44,813 nt of DNA from contig JAHDHU010000012.1 of NCBI GenBank assembly GCA_020631135.1, positions 11,799 through 56,611 on the forward strand. The letters are read 5' to 3'. The notes below the pieces were generated by a model. It was not told the DNA's origin and did not search any database. It saw only the letters and a list, made by a program, of their open reading frames with translations. Every line of letters begins with the position of its first letter. Position 1 is the stretch's first letter. Made by a program: the position numbers and the translations under genes. This DNA comes from Saprospiraceae bacterium. GTDB lineage: Bacteria; Bacteroidota; Bacteroidia; Chitinophagales; Saprospiraceae. Positions 2,839 through 43,044 of this stretch are shown piece after piece.

Positions 2839-4863
2839 ATGAGCATCTACAAGTTAAATTCTAAGTTCGAACCAACTGGAGATCAACCTCAAGCAATCGA
2901 TCAACTGGTTGGTGGTATTAATGATGGAGAAGAAGCACAAGTTCTTCTAGGAGTGACTGGTTCTGGAAAAACATTCACAATGGCTAAAGTCATTGAGAAA
3001 ATAGAAAAGCCAGTTCTCATCCTTACTCACAATAAAACATTGACGGCTCAGTTATACGGTGAGTTTCGGGAATTCTTTCCAGACAATGCCGTAGAGTACT
3101 TTGTTTCTTATTATGATTATTATCAACCAGAGGCGTACATGACCTCTAGCGATACCTACATCGAAAAAGATCTACAGATTAATGAAGAAGTAGATAAATT
3201 AAGATTGCGAGCTTCCTCCTCTCTAATGTCAGGAAGAAGAGATATAATAATTGTTGCGTCCGTATCTTGTATTTACGGTATGGGTAATCCAGATGACCTA
3301 AAAGCTGGAATCATAAGATTAAAAAAAGGTCAATTGATAACTCGAAACTCTTTCCTTTACACCTTAACGGAAAGTTTATATTCAAGAAGTGAAATTGATT
3401 TTAAAAGAGGGACCTTTCGAGTCAGAGGAGATACAGTAGACATTCATCTACCCTATGTGGATTACGGTTATCGAGTGACATTTTTTGGGGACGAAATTGA
3501 AAATATAGATCAAATAGAATTAGAAACAGGTAAAAGGATTACCTCCTTAGATTTTGCCGCTATTTTTCCTGCAAATCTTTATCTCGCACCCAGAGAAAAA
3601 CTCAATCAAATCATTAAAATGATTGAGGATGAATTACATGAACATGAAAAATTCTTTAAAGCCGAAGAACGATACCTAGAAGGCAAAAGAATCAAAGAAC
3701 GGGTCCAGTTTGATTTAGAAATGATTCGAGAACTTGGATACTGCAGCGGTATTGAAAATTACTCACGATTTTTTGATGGTAGAAAACCAGGTACCCGACC
3801 TTTCTGTTTGTTAGATTACTTTCCAGATGATTGGGTCATGTTTATTGACGAAAGTCATGTGACCATTCCCCAAGTGAGGGGAATGTGGGGAGGCGATCGT
3901 GCGAGAAAAATAAATCTTGTAAATCATGGGTTTAGGCTACCCTCTGCACTGGACAATCGACCTTTGAGTTTTGAAGAATTTGAAAGTTTACAAAACCAAG
4001 TTGTATTTGTCAGCGCAACTCCTGGCAATTACGAACTCGAAAGAACCGAAGGTTTGGTTGTGGAGCAAATCGTGAGACCAACGGGTCTTTTAGATCCTCC
4101 GATAGATGTACGACCAAGTATGAATCAAATTGATGATCTGTTGGACGAAATTCATCAAAGAATCCAGAAAGATGAACGCGTACTTGTCACCACGCTAACG
4201 AAGAGAATGTCTGAAGAACTCTCAAAATATTTAGCAAGGGTTCAAATCAAAGTTCGATATATACACTCTGAAGTCGATACCATGGATCGTGTTGAAATAT
4301 TACGTGACCTTAGACTTGGTGAATTCGATGTACTTGTGGGAGTAAATCTTTTGAGAGAAGGTTTGGATCTCCCTGAAGTTTCTCTCGTTGCAGTGTTGGA
4401 TGCAGATAAAGAAGGCTTTTTAAGGAATGTTAAATCTCTCACCCAAACGGCTGGAAGAGCAGCTCGAAATTCTAATGGAATGGTAATATTTTATGCAGAC
4501 AAAATAACCAACAGCATGCAACTTACCATTGACGAGACCAACCGAAGGAGAGATATTCAGATGGCCTACAATAAAAAACACAACATCACTCCGAAAACTA
4601 TTTTTAAATCTAAAGAGGACATCTTAGCTTCCAAATCCATCTTGGATATTCGAGGAAAGAAGTCCAAAGCATACGTTGAATCAGAAGAACCTTCAGTTGC
4701 TGCCGACCCAATCATAAACTATATGAGTCGTGATCAATTGGAAAGATTAATTGGAGAAACCGAATCGAAAATGAAAGCTGCCGCAAAAGATTTAGACTTT
4801 ATTACTGCTGCTCAGTACAGAGATGAGCTGATGGCATTAAAAAAGAAGCTTAAAGCGAAATAA
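2839..4863 (+). CDS. uvrB: Excinuclease ABC subunit B (UvrB)
   Basis: DNA damage-verifying helicase of nucleotide excision repair; it takes lesions from UvrA and recruits UvrC for incision. At 674 residues it is full length. Visible parts are Walker A GVTGSGKT (38-45), the beta-hairpin region that clamps one strand (YYDYYQPEAY), helicase motifs in the C-terminal RecA-like half (DVLVGVNLLREGLDLPEVSLV and QTAGRAAR), and a UVR domain at about 630-665 that contacts UvrC. Start ATG is at 2839. No uvrA or uvrC lies in the window. Confidence 0.98.
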   Translation: MSIYKLNSKFEPTGDQPQAIDQLVGGINDGEEAQVLLGVTGSGKTFTMAKVIEKIEKPVLILTHNKTLTAQLYGEFREFFPDNAVEYFVSYYDYYQPEAYMTSSDTYIEKDLQINEEVDKLRLRASSSLMSGRRDIIIVASVSCIYGMGNPDDLKAGIIRLKKGQLITRNSFLYTLTESLYSRSEIDFKRGTFRVRGDTVDIHLPYVDYGYRVTFFGDEIENIDQIELETGKRITSLDFAAIFPANLYLAPREKLNQIIKMIEDELHEHEKFFKAEERYLEGKRIKERVQFDLEMIRELGYCSGIENYSRFFDGRKPGTRPFCLLDYFPDDWVMFIDESHVTIPQVRGMWGGDRARKINLVNHGFRLPSALDNRPLSFEEFESLQNQVVFVSATPGNYELERTEGLVVEQIVRPTGLLDPPIDVRPSMNQIDDLLDEIHQRIQKDERVLVTTLTKRMSEELSKYLARVQIKVRYIHSEVDTMDRVEILRDLRLGEFDVLVGVNLLREGLDLPEVSLVAVLDADKEGFLRNVKSLTQTAGRAARNSNGMVIFYADKITNSMQLTIDETNRRRDIQMAYNKKHNITPKTIFKSKEDILASKSILDIRGKKSKAYVESEEPSVAADPIINYMSRDQLERLIGETESKMKAAAKDLDFITAAQYRDELMALKKKLKAK

Positions 4864-15788: not shown

Positions 15789-16130
15789 CTAAACTGCCAA
15801 AATTTGAGGTGGCCCTCGTAAAAAAGAAAAATGATGTTTCGGTATTTGATATAAATCTTCGGAAAGAATTCCCTTGTCTTCAATTATTCGCTCCGAACAC
15901 TTTATCTCCAAAGTAAGGTCAACAAATTGAGATGGTTCAAATTGAAACAAACAAATTCCACATATATCGTGACCATTATTTGATTCTATAAAACTTTGTT
16001 CACTAGAATCCAAAAATGTATCATGACCATGACCGCAAATCTTATGTACACTCTGCAGAACAAGCGCCTGAGAAATGAGTACCACTAAAAACATTGCGGT
16101 TATCGAACGATATATTGGATTAAAGTTCAA
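15789..16130 (-). CDS. Small exported Cys/His protein at the metal-uptake locus
   Basis: 113 residues from a TTG at 16130, which follows an in-frame TAA by two codons. An ATG start at 16094 would lose the basic residues before the hydrophobic signal (MFLVVLISQALVLQS), so TTG is preferred. The mature part has CGHGHD and HDICGICLFQF (a CxxC) and ends in LRGPPQILAV. Small proteins with this Cys/His content and an RGPP tail occur next to TonB receptors in Bacteroidota; function is not known to me. Two overlapping promoters and a perfect palindrome lie directly upstream, pointing to control by a repressor. Confidence 0.7.
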   Translation of the reverse strand: MNFNPIYRSITAMFLVVLISQALVLQSVHKICGHGHDTFLDSSEQSFIESNNGHDICGICLFQFEPSQFVDLTLEIKCSERIIEDKGILSEDLYQIPKHHFSFLRGPPQILAV

Positions 16131-16144
16131 AACTTACTGATCTA

Positions 16145-16182
16145 CAAAGTTAAGCAAATATAGGATAAATGCAACACTGTTG
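16145..16182 (-). promoter_or_regulatory. Two overlapping Bacteroidota promoters ahead of the Cys/His protein
   Basis: On the minus strand two promoter readings fit. One has TTG, a 20-base spacer and TATATTTG (box at 16155-16162). The other has TTG, a 19-base spacer and TAACTTTG (box at 16145-16152). Both -33 TTG elements lie inside the palindrome at 16170-16184. The boxes end 24 and 14 bases before the TTG start codon. Confidence 0.6.
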
Positions 16183-16184
16183 CA
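16170..16184. promoter_or_regulatory. Perfect 7-1-7 palindrome, candidate Fur/Zur-family operator
   Basis: TGCAACACTGTTGCA is a perfect 7-1-7 inverted repeat, the layout typical of Fur-superfamily boxes (Fur, Zur, PerR). It covers the -33 region and spacer of the promoters of the Cys/His protein gene, where a bound repressor would block RNA polymerase. Assignment to Zur rather than another dimeric repressor is inference from the His-rich gene set. Confidence 0.55.
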
Positions 16185-16220
16185 AAGTATGCTTAATGCT
16201 GACATATCTCGAAAGAAAAT

Positions 16221-16256
16221 AAAAAAAGCCTCGACATTATTAAGTCGAAGCTTTTT
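16221..16256 (-). terminator. Intrinsic terminator of tRNA-Gln
   Basis: On the minus strand a stem of about 13 pairs (AAAAAGCTTCGAC / GTCGAGGCTTTTT with one G.T pair) runs into T-rich sequence just after the 3' end of tRNA-Gln. Confidence 0.75.
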
Positions 16257-16258
16257 AG

Positions 16259-16330
16259 TTGACCCACTAGGACTCGAACCTAGAATGACGGTACCAAAAA
16301 CCGTAGTGTTGCCAATTACACCATGGGTCA
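16259..16330 (-). tRNA. tRNA-Gln (anticodon TTG)
   Basis: Full cloverleaf on the minus strand. The acceptor stem is TGACCCA / TGGGTCA, the anticodon stem ACGGT / ACCGT encloses the loop TTTTGGT with anticodon TTG, and the T arm contains GGTTCGAGTCC. The unusual U1-A72 pair is normal for tRNA-Gln. The CCA end is not encoded. It is followed by its own terminator. Confidence 0.95.
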
Positions 16331-38824: not shown

Positions 38825-39652
38825 CTATTTATTGATAAAATATTTATCCAATTCTTTTTTGGCAACTGGTAGTTTAGCATTAAAATTTGGTCGGTGACTA
38901 AAATATAAGCTGACCAGGATATAAGTCAAATCAACAACTTCGTATCCTAAGGCAGCTAGTAATTTATCCTTTTTAAAACCGCTAATCGCTTCCACATCTT
39001 CCCATGTGGCTTTTTCTAACTCAGACAAGTCCCAAGTAGGGTTCTCTTTTATTATGGCTTCACCAAAAGCGTGGTAGGCAATGTTATAATACTTGTCAGG
39101 ATGATTTATTGCATTGATTAAATATGGCGTCATCAAAATAATCACGCCATCTTCAGCCTCAGTTTCGACGATGTGAAGAAATTGCTTTTTAGGCGATCCA
39201 AAGGGGTGTTGGTATAAAAAAATTCGATCAAAATCTCCAATCAAAAAATCTTCTTGATAAAGGGTCATTTCGACGGCATGACAAGCTACCAAAATTTTTA
39301 AATCCTCTGGCACCGTTTTTTTTTCTGATGCTACTCCTTTAAATAATCTAGCTTCTAGATATAATGAAAGTCTATCTCTAAATTTCAGCCTGTCCTCTTC
39401 TTCCAGAATTTTATAAAAGCGATGTCGATTTTCTAAATACTCGATGACTGGTGGATCAAGTTCATTAGGATTTTTAAGGTGCCAAGAATAGTCCATTTCA
39501 TTTCTCATATAATAAATGGCTATGGCCAGAGCCAACGGCAATAAAATCCAATTGATATTTAGCAAGTCAAACTGAATACTCATAATACCTATCATCAAGG
39601 CAGATAATACCAGCAAAGACATCAAAATTTGTGAAGGTGAGTACAGTTTCAT
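38825..39652 (-). CDS. M90/MtfA-like membrane protein without zinc motif (paralogue 1)
   Basis: 275 residues: two N-terminal membrane helices, then an MtfA-like (peptidase family M90) domain recognisable from RHRFYKILEEEDRLKFRDRLSLYLEARLFKGV and the LYQHPFGSPKKQF region. In MtfA the zinc motif is HExxH. Here the matching place reads HAFGE (His194-Glu198), so the first Glu and second His are gone and zinc-dependent proteolysis is unlikely. It is homologous to the protein at 40432, with which it is divergent across tRNA-Phe and a repeat array. A binding or scaffold role is possible. Confidence 0.8.
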   Translation of the reverse strand: MKLYSPSQILMSLLVLSALMIGIMSIQFDLLNINWILLPLALAIAIYYMRNEMDYSWHLKNPNELDPPVIEYLENRHRFYKILEEEDRLKFRDRLSLYLEARLFKGVASEKKTVPEDLKILVACHAVEMTLYQEDFLIGDFDRIFLYQHPFGSPKKQFLHIVETEAEDGVIILMTPYLINAINHPDKYYNIAYHAFGEAIIKENPTWDLSELEKATWEDVEAISGFKKDKLLAALGYEVVDLTYILVSLYFSHRPNFNAKLPVAKKELDKYFINK

Positions 39653-40431: not shown

Positions 40432-41319
40432 ATGTTTTCACGAATAGTCGCTTTTCCATTTATCATGGCACTTGGTTGGTGTCTTTATAATATATACCAC
40501 TATTATGACTCCAATCCTCAAGAGACTAATATCTATATGATTGGTGTCGCAGTATTGGCAGTCATTTTATCTATCATTTATATTTTTAGTCCGCAGATAG
40601 ATTGGTGGTGGTTCAACCGTAATCCTCCCAAGATGCACGAGAAGCTACGTATGCTTTTGCAAAAATATAATCGTTTTTATAGAAACCTAACCGTAAAAGA
40701 AAAAGAGCGCTTTCGCAAAAGAGTGTCTTTATATATGCATGCGCATGAATTTAAACCGATGGGAGGCCCCGAAACCTTGCCCGAAGATGTGCGCGGCTTT
40801 ATAGCCGCCGCCGCCGTTCAGCTTACCTTTGGACAAAAAGATTTTACATTAGAACCATTTGAGCATATTATATTATATCCAGGAGCATTTCCTTCACCTC
40901 AATATCCGAAGCATTTGCACAACTCCGAACATTACAAAGAAGATGGAGTTATTATGTTTTCTATAAAATCAGTAATGGATAGCACTACATTATCGCCACG
41001 TGCTTATCATGTATTATTGCACGAATATGCTAGTGTCTTTGAAACCATAAATCCTAAAATGGATTTTCCTGCTTTAGACGAAAGTATTTGGGAAACCCTA
41101 GAAAGCATTAGTGGCATGAGCAAAGAATTTGTTCATGAGTCTATTAATATACCTAAAGTGTCGCCTCGTCCTGTGAGTATTCATCACTTTTTTGTCTTTC
41201 CAGAAAAATTTCAAGAAAAACTGCCTACACTATATAATAGGTATAAAGAAATTTTCAATCTTGACCCTTGCGAAATGCACGAACCTGTACTTGAGTGGCG
41301 CAATCTTCAGATTGCGTAA
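40432..41319 (+). CDS. M90/MtfA-like membrane protein without zinc motif (paralogue 2)
   Basis: 295 residues with two N-terminal membrane helices, then an MtfA-like domain (PEDVRGFIAAAAVQLTFGQKDF, HIILYPGAFPSPQ). The HExxH site reads HEYAS (His197-Ser201), keeping His-Glu but losing the second His ligand. The family then expects a downstream acidic ligand; WETLES is at that place. Catalysis is doubtful. Codon use here is richer in GC than in nearby genes (a GCC run near 40804). The last six codons and the stop lie in a palindrome (41300-41317), so the tail LEWRNLQIA may come from a REP-like insertion that reset the 3' end. Confidence 0.8.
   Translation: MFSRIVAFPFIMALGWCLYNIYHYYDSNPQETNIYMIGVAVLAVILSIIYIFSPQIDWWWFNRNPPKMHEKLRMLLQKYNRFYRNLTVKEKERFRKRVSLYMHAHEFKPMGGPETLPEDVRGFIAAAAVQLTFGQKDFTLEPFEHIILYPGAFPSPQYPKHLHNSEHYKEDGVIMFSIKSVMDSTTLSPRAYHVLLHEYASVFETINPKMDFPALDESIWETLESISGMSKEFVHESINIPKVSPRPVSIHHFFVFPEKFQEKLPTLYNRYKEIFNLDPCEMHEPVLEWRNLQIA
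41300..41317. repeat. REP-like palindrome forming the 3' end of the M90-like gene
   Basis: Perfect 8-bp arms CGCAATCT and AGATTGCG around a TC loop. It codes the last residues of the upstream protein and abuts its stop codon. Confidence 0.55.
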
Positions 41320-41383: not shown

Positions 41384-41541
41384 AGTAATATTTTAGCTCA
41401 AATCCATCCAAAAATGCCCATTTTAGGGCTTCAAATGTTAAGAAAGCCTTAAAAAACACCTTTTTTCGATTTTTTTATGAAAAAATTTATGGAATTATAG
41501 CTTTTGGTGAGTCTTTAATGTGAACGCTGATAATTGAGAAC

Positions 41542-42246
41542 ATGAATACTGACGAACACACCAACACACTAACAATCAAAGCATGGGCCGAAGAAGATCG
41601 GCCACGAGAAAAAATGCTTCTTAAAGGAAAAAATATTTTGACAGATGCAGAATTAGTTGCCATATTGATTGGCTCTGGTTCAAGAGAAGAAACCGCAGTC
41701 GCTTTGTCGCAACGCATTCTACAATCTGCCGAAAATAACTTAAACGATTTAGGGAGATACTCGATAGCTGATTTTGTAAAGTTTAAAGGTATCGGTGAAG
41801 CCAAAGCCATTAGCATAGTTGCTGCGCTTGAATTGGGTCGCCGCCGTCAGTTGTCGGATGTAAAAGAACGTCCGAAAGTAACCAGCAGTCGAGATGCTCA
41901 TAATGCCATCGCACCCATTTTGATGGATTTGACACACGAAGAGTTTTGGGTTTTGATGCTCAATAGAGCCAATGAAATCACCCGTAAAGTTTGCATCAGT
42001 AGAGGAGGAGTAGCTGGCACAGTAGTAGATGCAAAGATAGTTTTCAAAAAAGCCCTAGAAAGTATGGCTTGCTCTATTATTCTTTGTCATAATCATCCAT
42101 CAGGTAATACTAAACCCAGCCAAGCTGATGTTAATATTACAGAAAAGTTGGTCAAAGCGGGCAAAACACTCGACATCAATGTATTAGACCATTTAATCAT
42201 AACAGACCGAGGCTTTTATAGCTTCGCTGATGAAGGAATGATGTAA
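41542..42246 (+). CDS. radC: RadC/JAB-domain family protein
   Basis: 234 residues. An N-terminal helix-hairpin-helix region (about 15-85, FVKFKGIGEAKA) is followed by a JAB/MPN metalloprotease-like domain with HxHPSGNTKPSQAD, giving metal ligands His183, His185 and Asp196. Although called RadC, a repair function has been questioned; such genes are often found on mobile islands and phages. Here the long non-coding stretch and an ABC exporter follow. Start ATG is at 41542. No transposase or integrase is seen next to it. Confidence 0.93.
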   Translation: MNTDEHTNTLTIKAWAEEDRPREKMLLKGKNILTDAELVAILIGSGSREETAVALSQRILQSAENNLNDLGRYSIADFVKFKGIGEAKAISIVAALELGRRRQLSDVKERPKVTSSRDAHNAIAPILMDLTHEEFWVLMLNRANEITRKVCISRGGVAGTVVDAKIVFKKALESMACSIILCHNHPSGNTKPSQADVNITEKLVKAGKTLDINVLDHLIITDRGFYSFADEGMM

Positions 42247-42402
42247 ATCTCAGAAACCGATTCATCTTTCCACTAAAATTTAGAAGTAGCATAATAGCTG
42301 CTCTATTTTCCAAATCACACCACACACACACCTATTTGAAAAGAAAGTTTACAATTTAGTTTAAACACTTTTTAAAGTCGTCCTCTTACACTTTGAAATA
42401 GC

Positions 42403-42425
42403 CAAAGGTTTAGAATAAACCTTTG
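42403..42425. promoter_or_regulatory. Perfect inverted repeat with 10-bp arms after radC
   Basis: Arms CAAAGGTTTA and TAAACCTTTG around GAA. No T-run follows, so it is more likely an operator, or the 5' border of the structured stretch, than a terminator. Confidence 0.5.
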
Positions 42426-43013
42426 TGCGAATCAAAAAAGTAAAGGCGAATAATTCCAAAGTTTAGAAATTATTTTTACCAGATATAATGAACGGTTTTG
42501 GACATGGATTACCCCCTATCGATGTCTGAACAAGATACCGATGTATTGTCCAAAACCAATCTTTTGACATTGTTAGAAAATTACACGATACGCTGAAGTG
42601 AAGAAGCTCGTACTGTGAGAAATAGAGTTTTAAAAAAACTCTATGAAAGCAAACTACAAATACTATGACACTAAAGCAAAGTCTGTTTGCCTAGTTCTAT
42701 GAGATGGGCAGGTAATCTAAACCAAAAGAAGGAGATTAAAATCGGTTAGTATTACAACAAACGGACTTGCTTTTTTACAAAGTTAATAATGATAAAGGGT
42801 TAGTACACTGTAAGGAAATCTACAAACAGAACCATAAACCAAGATATCCCAAACCGATTAGCTCCGATTGACACATACCCCTTTTGTGAAAATCGGAGCA
42901 ACTTAAAGAAACGTTAATATCCCTTTAGAGGGAATTATATAAAGATTTTTTATGTAGTAGCCATAAAAATAGTGTGTGTTTTTAGTTAAAAACGGAGACG
43001 TTTTTCATGCTAG
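42426..43013 (+). ncRNA. Candidate long structured RNA or leader upstream of the ABC exporter
   Basis: The 840 bases between radC and the ABC gene have no good coding frame but many paired elements. There is an 11-bp stem at 42494-42504 / 42547-42557 with a second stem inside. TAGAGTTT / AAACTCTA spans 42623-42643. A long-range stem links 42674-42689 with 42758-42773 (AAGTCTGTTTG / CAAACGGACTT type, with G.U). AATCGGTT (42740-42747) can pair with AACCGATT (42852-42859), which makes a pseudoknot with the previous stem. GCTCCGATT / AATCGGAGC spans 42861-42899. It ends in hairpins and a strong terminator. I could not match it to RNase P, tmRNA, SRP, 6S or a group II intron. Confidence 0.45.
42978..43005 (+). 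promoter_or_regulatory. Mutually exclusive hairpins ahead of the terminator
   Basis: GTTTTTAGTTAAAAAC (42978-42993) and AAAAACGGAGACGTTTTT (42988-43005) are both perfect hairpins that share the A-run at 42988-42993, so only one can form at a time. This is the layout of an attenuation switch, but AT-rich sequence can produce it by chance. Confidence 0.35.
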
Positions 43014-43044
43014 GAGTGTATCGAAGGGTACACTCTTTTTTTTT
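43014..43044 (+). terminator. Strong intrinsic terminator 42 bases before the ABC gene
   Basis: Perfect 7-bp stem GAGTGTA / TACACTC, 8-base loop, then nine T. It ends the non-coding stretch on the plus strand, so either an independent RNA stops here or it regulates read-through into the exporter. Confidence 0.85.

Follow-up and report, generated by a model that had tools for sequence, protein, structure and literature searches.

The 840 bases that separate radC from an ABC exporter gene in the Saprospiraceae contig studied here hold no credible gene, and raise the question of what is encoded, if anything, between the two. The window, i.e., the whole stretch of DNA that was analysed, measures 44,813 nucleotides, and the original prediction described within it about 640 bases (42403-43044) as strongly paired and free of any credible gene, suggesting either a structured RNA of its own or an extended regulatory leader. 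Coding capacity is indeed poor, as 42403-43044 wholly contains four open reading frames of at least 30 codons, two on the plus strand (32 and 34 codons) and two on the minus strand (35 and 33), none longer than 35. In our analysis, the gap probably hosts a large, lineage-specific structured noncoding RNA placed behind radC and perhaps co-transcribed with it, whose features are collected in Table 1. The 3' end first proposed was retained, while the 5' limit had to be moved outwards to approximately 42324.

Table 1. Position of the features at the radC-ABC exporter locus (numbering of the window).
Feature	Position	Strand	Remarks
radC	41542..42246	+	Constant upstream neighbour; Pfam PF04002, PF20582
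Proposed structured RNA, ~721 nt, 3' of radC	42324..43044	+	Homologues, fold z, terminator; putative ends
Candidate closing helix P1, 5' strand ACACACACCUAU, one C bulged	42324..42335	+	Complement of 42969-42979 but for C
Perfect hairpin CAAAGGUUUA/UAAACCUUUG	42403..42425	+	Present in window
Hairpin GGUUUUGGACA/UGUCCAAAACC	42494..42557	+	Counterpart in G097, 22/22 cells paired
Perfect hairpin AUAGAGUUUU/AAAACUCUAU	42622..42644	+	Present in window
Long-range stem 42673-42689 / 42758-42773	42673..42773	+	Predicted fold of window
Possible pseudoknot, arms 42740-42747 and 42852-42859	42740..42859	+	Exact complements in window
Hairpin GCUCCGAUU/AAUCGGAGC with inner stem	42861..42899	+	Outer 8 pairs identical in 3/3 sequences
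Invariant 44-nt block before terminator	42966..43009	+	Identical in 3/3 sequences; holds most of P1 3' strand region
Intrinsic terminator	43014..43044	+	Stem 43014-43035, then nine T
ABC exporter, cut by contig end	43087..44811	+	Downstream neighbour; Pfam PF00664, PF00005

The search for homologous copies by blastn, suggested with the original prediction as a check, was extended to 398 genomes of the family with two candidates scored per genome, and 166 of them, the window's own included, gave a match at E ≤0.1. Among the matches listed, two are true homologues beyond the window, on contig C205 of genome G097 (95% identity over 106 nt and 84% over 87 nt) and on contig C74 of genome G188 (88% over 88 nt), both belonging to genus g94; the others among those listed consist of words of about 19-50 nt and were not counted as real. 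The longest word identical to the window RNA reaches 79 nt in G097 and 44 nt in G188, and the longest one identical to the window radC 18 and 20 nt, respectively, with an overall radC DNA identity of 73.6% and 65.0%. The G097 RNA spans approximately positions 281 to 1,600 of locus L016, or about 1,320 nt including a run of 100 N whose true length is unknown, and the G188 RNA runs on the minus strand from about 2038 to 1505 of locus L017 (about 530 nt), with an ambiguous 5' limit, the whole-length alignment preferring a similar stretch nearer radC. Since the whole-length MAFFT alignment misaligns much of the interior, comparisons among the three sequences rest on separately aligned blocks. For every pair among the window, G097 and G188, translated comparison (tblastx) matched the 3' block in each of the six frames, hence no reading frame is preferred, and no small open reading frame common to the three RNAs was visible; a protein-coding gene was consequently dropped as an explanation.

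In all three genomes the RNA lies directly 3' of radC and on the same strand, inspection by eye recognised no promoter between the two, and a terminator stands at the end, as would be expected of a long 3' untranslated region of the radC mRNA that in cis protects or destabilises the messenger and insulates the next gene. We regard this reading as unlikely in view of the distances found in relatives. Of 80 ABC loci, 29 also hold a radC match, and together with three further loci (contig C11 of G000, the window's own assembly, and its genus mates G001 and G002) and G097 they make 33 distinct radC-ABC loci, the window not being counted and duplicates being counted once. The spacing between aligned ends is 74-220 nt in 23 of them, and a simple 3' end would need neither an invariant 44-nt block nor a domain of 530-1,320 nt. 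The remaining ten gaps measure 410-1,640 nt: the one in G097 holds the RNA, open reading frames of at least 100 codons occur in six (L011, L051, L052, L058, L104, and L109), and those of L048, L055, and L121 contain neither a separate open reading frame of that size nor a match to R1, a covariance model built on the 3' block. In genus mate G001 the insert is a DUF6624 gene (L011, 3353-3955, minus strand) which, along with the other open reading frames in five loci, indicates that the radC-ABC junction seems to accept insertions.

Unlike radC, the gene that follows is not constant, G188 having a different gene where the window and G097 have the ABC exporter. This bears on the possibility that the RNA regulates the next gene as a leader or attenuator, in which alternative hairpins before the terminator would decide on read-through. 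The 44-nt block does contain two mutually exclusive hairpins, GUUUUUAGUUAAAAAC (42978-42993) and AAAAACGGAGACGUUUUU (42988-43005), which use one strand in common and are both invariant, and in the window the terminator ends only about 42 nt before the start of the ABC gene. However, the next gene of G188 starts about 300 nt further on, no ABC match was found in the 12 kb fetched around its RNA, and the terminator stem takes part in neither of the exclusive hairpins, with no anti-terminator identified. Given that G188 has another next gene but keeps radC, and that a terminator precedes the ABC gene, the RNA is not supported as a leader of the exporter, and we consider an attenuator of whichever gene follows quite improbable. 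Of the two options originally offered, the RNA of its own is thus the supported one, backed by homologues, some compensatory changes and a conserved terminator, and the extended leader of the ABC gene is unlikely.

The structural elements originally described were largely recovered. At least five perfect or near-perfect stems had been claimed, and hairpins at 42403-42425, 42494-42557, 42622-42644, 42861-42899, and 42919-42935 are all present in the window, as are the long-range stem and, at the end of the stretch, the terminator with its run of T. In addition, pairing of ACACACACCUAU with AUAGUGUGUGU (42969-42979) could close the whole RNA as a helix, here named P1, and a strand resembling its 5' side occurs at the 5' ends of the homologues (AAACACACCUAU in G097, ACACACACCUAA in G188). 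Summing two registers, the P1 GU repeat reaches a pairing probability of 0.75-0.91 in the window (0.72-0.97 in G188), and the UA pairs next to the bulge only 0.2-0.4. The predicted folds of the window and G188 include P1; in G097, whose sequence has an assembly gap, the corresponding strand is predicted to pair elsewhere. No counterpart of the hairpin at 42403-42425 was identified in G097 or G188, nor one of the hairpin at 42494-42557 in G188. The long-range stem shares with a stem of G188, matched by position and by eye, the AAAGCA...UGCUUU base, and the upper part differs. For the claimed pseudoknot, exact complementarity of the arms was confirmed and comparative support was not obtained: in G188 the motifs AUUGG/CCGAU fit by eye, giving five pairs with wobble that chance could produce, and in G097 the partner region probably falls within the assembly gap, so that the pseudoknot is to be taken as a possible element.

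Compensatory changes, in which both partners differ and pairing is preserved, affect two base pairs in each of three helices (six in total) in comparisons of two or three sequences. With respect to G097, all 11 pairs of the hairpin at 42494-42557 are kept, two of them with changes on both sides; in the hairpin at 42861-42899, compared in three sequences, the five inner pairs include two double changes and leave three cells unpaired; in the terminator, nine of nine pairs are kept in the three sequences, again with two double changes. The seven pairs of the hairpin before the terminator never vary among the three. Nevertheless, this covariation is not significant, as the observed score was reached by 109-123 of 500 column shuffles in each of three tests, and a structure slid by -2 outscored the true one in two of them, those of the hairpin at 42861-42899 and of the terminator (0.205 vs. 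0.154 and 0.208 vs. 0.167). The slid structures pair much worse than the true one, and with only two or three sequences such tests have little power.

Folding was more stable than that of shuffled sequences, with z scores of -4.8 for the interval 42403-43044 (0/20 shuffles) and of -7.7 on the plus and -5.4 on the minus strand for the interval 42317-43044 (0/60 shuffles each; the remaining sequences of this set were shuffled 30 times each). Three parts of 500 nt of the window RNA scored from -4.5 to -5.6 on the plus and from -1.9 to -3.9 on the minus strand. Controls taken on both strands ranged from -3.2 to +0.7 for six segments of the same length and from -4.3 to +1.3 for twelve segments of 500 nt; the strongest one, 15801-16300 (-4.3 and -3.8 on the two strands), includes a tRNA and apparently intergenic DNA. 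In the homologues, the values were -6.1 on the plus and -4.6 on the minus strand for the G188 RNA, and -6.2 and -5.6 vs. -3.4 and -4.5 for parts of the G097 RNA. Without its terminator, the G188 RNA dropped to -3.1 (plus) and -3.7 (minus), no more than the radC-ABC gap of L048 (-4.0). With two other long gaps, those of L055 and L121, at -3.0 and -0.1, the three values indicate that strong folding is not rare in the intergenic DNA of these bacteria. The L048 gap (3553-4013), from another Saprospiraceae genome, contains repeats of the type GGTTTTCGAATATCGTGTGTCTTTC, as judged by eye. Exact complementary words within 400 nt of each other are also enriched in the window RNA, with 16 words of eight bases vs. 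6.7 on average after shuffling (16 reached in 3 of 200 shuffles) and four of ten bases vs. 0.47 (four reached in 2 of 200). A triple helix between the U run and the A-U hairpin was considered and dropped.

Further members were sought with R1. Among 397 genomes of the family, eight gave a match at E ≤0.005, two of which are real, namely G097 and G188; the other six (L131-L136) have neither radC, nor ABC, nor a good match to the three RNAs in about 1.5 kb of flanking sequence to each side, and at least four look by eye like plain terminators. Among 396 genomes of the order, matches at E ≤1e-4 were confined to four: G000, G097, G188, and a terminator of G067. The two samples overlap and were searched with stricter filters and eight candidates scored per genome, settings under which weak members could be lost. 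Out of 83 loci (77 of the 80 ABC loci and six others), six matched at E ≤1, and the two real ones, L125 and L126, are the same places in G097 and G188. No further member was therefore found with R1 in the family genomes, the order genomes or the loci. Of the short blastn matches, L018 and L019 were read in their surroundings, and neither shows the RNA. A match of 28-29 nt in G043 (L002) was rejected, lying inside an open frame of 1,009 codons which we take to encode an efflux-pump-like protein. G247, also of genus g94, has no RNA match, which says little as its assembly contains no radC match either. A housekeeping role is made less likely by the lack of matches in the three genus mates of G000 and in the other family genomes sampled.

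The right end of the contig, in an assembly that is 73% complete, differs in affinity from the left part. In the left part of the window, UvrB (one gene) shares 85-88% identity with its counterparts in G001 and G002, which are genus mates, and 75-77% with those of the three g94 genomes. At the contig end the affinity is reversed, RadC being 76% identical to that of G097 and 52-61% to those of three genus mates (68% to that of G188), and the ABC protein 83% to that of G097 vs. 64% to those of G001 and G002; the best-matching named records of the ABC gene are from Saprospiraceae. Similarity to G188 and G097 starts about 105 bases before radC, near 41437, a boundary for which only G188 tests the sequence further upstream because only 122 bases precede radC on the contig of G097. 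Close by lie two diverged paralogues about 30% identical to each other (38825-39652, minus strand, and 40432-41319, plus strand), the product of the latter matching Pfam Peptidase_M90. Moreover, a second radC-ABC pair, on contig C11 of G000, resembles the genus mates more closely (RadC 58-66%, ABC 73-74%). Given the reversed affinity and this second pair, everything from about 41437 up to the end of the contig (44813) may derive from a g94-like donor or may be a chimeric contig end.

The differing affinity of the left part of the contig and of the radC-RNA-ABC stretch is also what could be expected if the latter carried the degraded remains of a mobile element, or else a site acting at the DNA level, for recombination or protein binding; the 44-nt block would suit a DNA site too, and the G097 copy has extra sequence resembling inverted repeats. 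Yet the RNA occurs as a single copy in each of G000, G097, and G188, second matches of the model in the last two (E 0.03 and 0.06) looking like plain terminators. It has no match in phages, and among plasmids only words of 30-36 nt were shared, each with two plasmid records. Compensation, moreover, keeps the pairing of the terminator, and taken together these observations make a remnant or DNA site very improbable. In viral contigs, searches for four exact patterns returned 0, 2, 0, and 0 stretches, and the two correspond to an 18-base palindrome.

Rfam 15 includes the large RNAs OLE, GOLLD, ROOL, HEARO, and raiA, as well as group I and group II introns. Scanning the window against it with cmscan, another of the checks suggested beforehand, returned no family at the locus at the gathering score, the whole window yielding two tRNAs only, and at E ≤10 the hits at the locus were weak, unrelated and far below the gathering score; the statement that none of the usual large bacterial RNAs is recognisable here agrees with this result. 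tmRNA (RF00023) and RNase P RNA (RF00010) are also large RNAs whose ends pair to close the molecule, but neither matches at the locus. tmRNA was found above the cut-off elsewhere in four of six genomes (G097, G001, G188, and G247, and not in G000 or G002) and RNase P RNA at other places in the three genomes G000, G097, and G188; since both sit elsewhere in G097 and G188, the RNA is not a strayed copy of either. Another RNA bearing the name of the same gene, the radC RNA motif, sits before radC, whereas the RNA of the window lies behind it and has no Rfam match. That motif (RF01754) is presented as a likely cis-regulatory RNA of Proteobacteria (PMC2864571). The closest kind is that of OLE, GOLLD, and ROOL, which are also large and rich in helices, with an interior not highly conserved and a poorly understood function (PMC12286853); the present RNA differs in having no Rfam 15 match and in being represented by three Saprospiraceae-type sequences behind radC. 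Among the papers listed from the open-licence literature, titles and abstract openings name no such RNA, and we propose with moderate confidence that it constitutes a new family among the large ornate bacterial RNAs.

If the locus does encode a structured RNA in its own right, it would be transcribed from the plus strand, with a promoter in the 3' flank of radC or else as a processed product of transcription reading through from radC, and the intrinsic terminator would set its 3' end. Its two ends would be joined by P1, enclosing a domain of several helices whose interior would be free to vary in length (from about 530 to 1,320 nt), with the 44-nt module as the fixed part. As this module is kept letter by letter, loops included, recognition of its sequence by a partner is suggested, and it would most likely be the site read by a conserved protein or RNA, while its two exclusive hairpins could give it two states. 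In this view the molecule would work in trans, as the RNA component of a complex, and be a counterpart of OLE, GOLLD, and ROOL restricted to its lineage. A more speculative proposal, to which we assign a low probability, is that a new class of large RNA travels with radC as a unit between Saprospiraceae lineages, its two-state module recruiting a partner perhaps connected with RadC and the rest of the molecule being left free to evolve.

To our knowledge few large structured bacterial RNAs have been recognised, most of them lacking an assigned function. If real, the RNA described here would combine a narrow distribution, a letter-perfect module within a fast-changing molecule and a constant neighbour, and would thereby offer a defined bait for its partner. 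It would also illustrate how RNAs of this kind escape curated libraries when confined to poorly sampled lineages.
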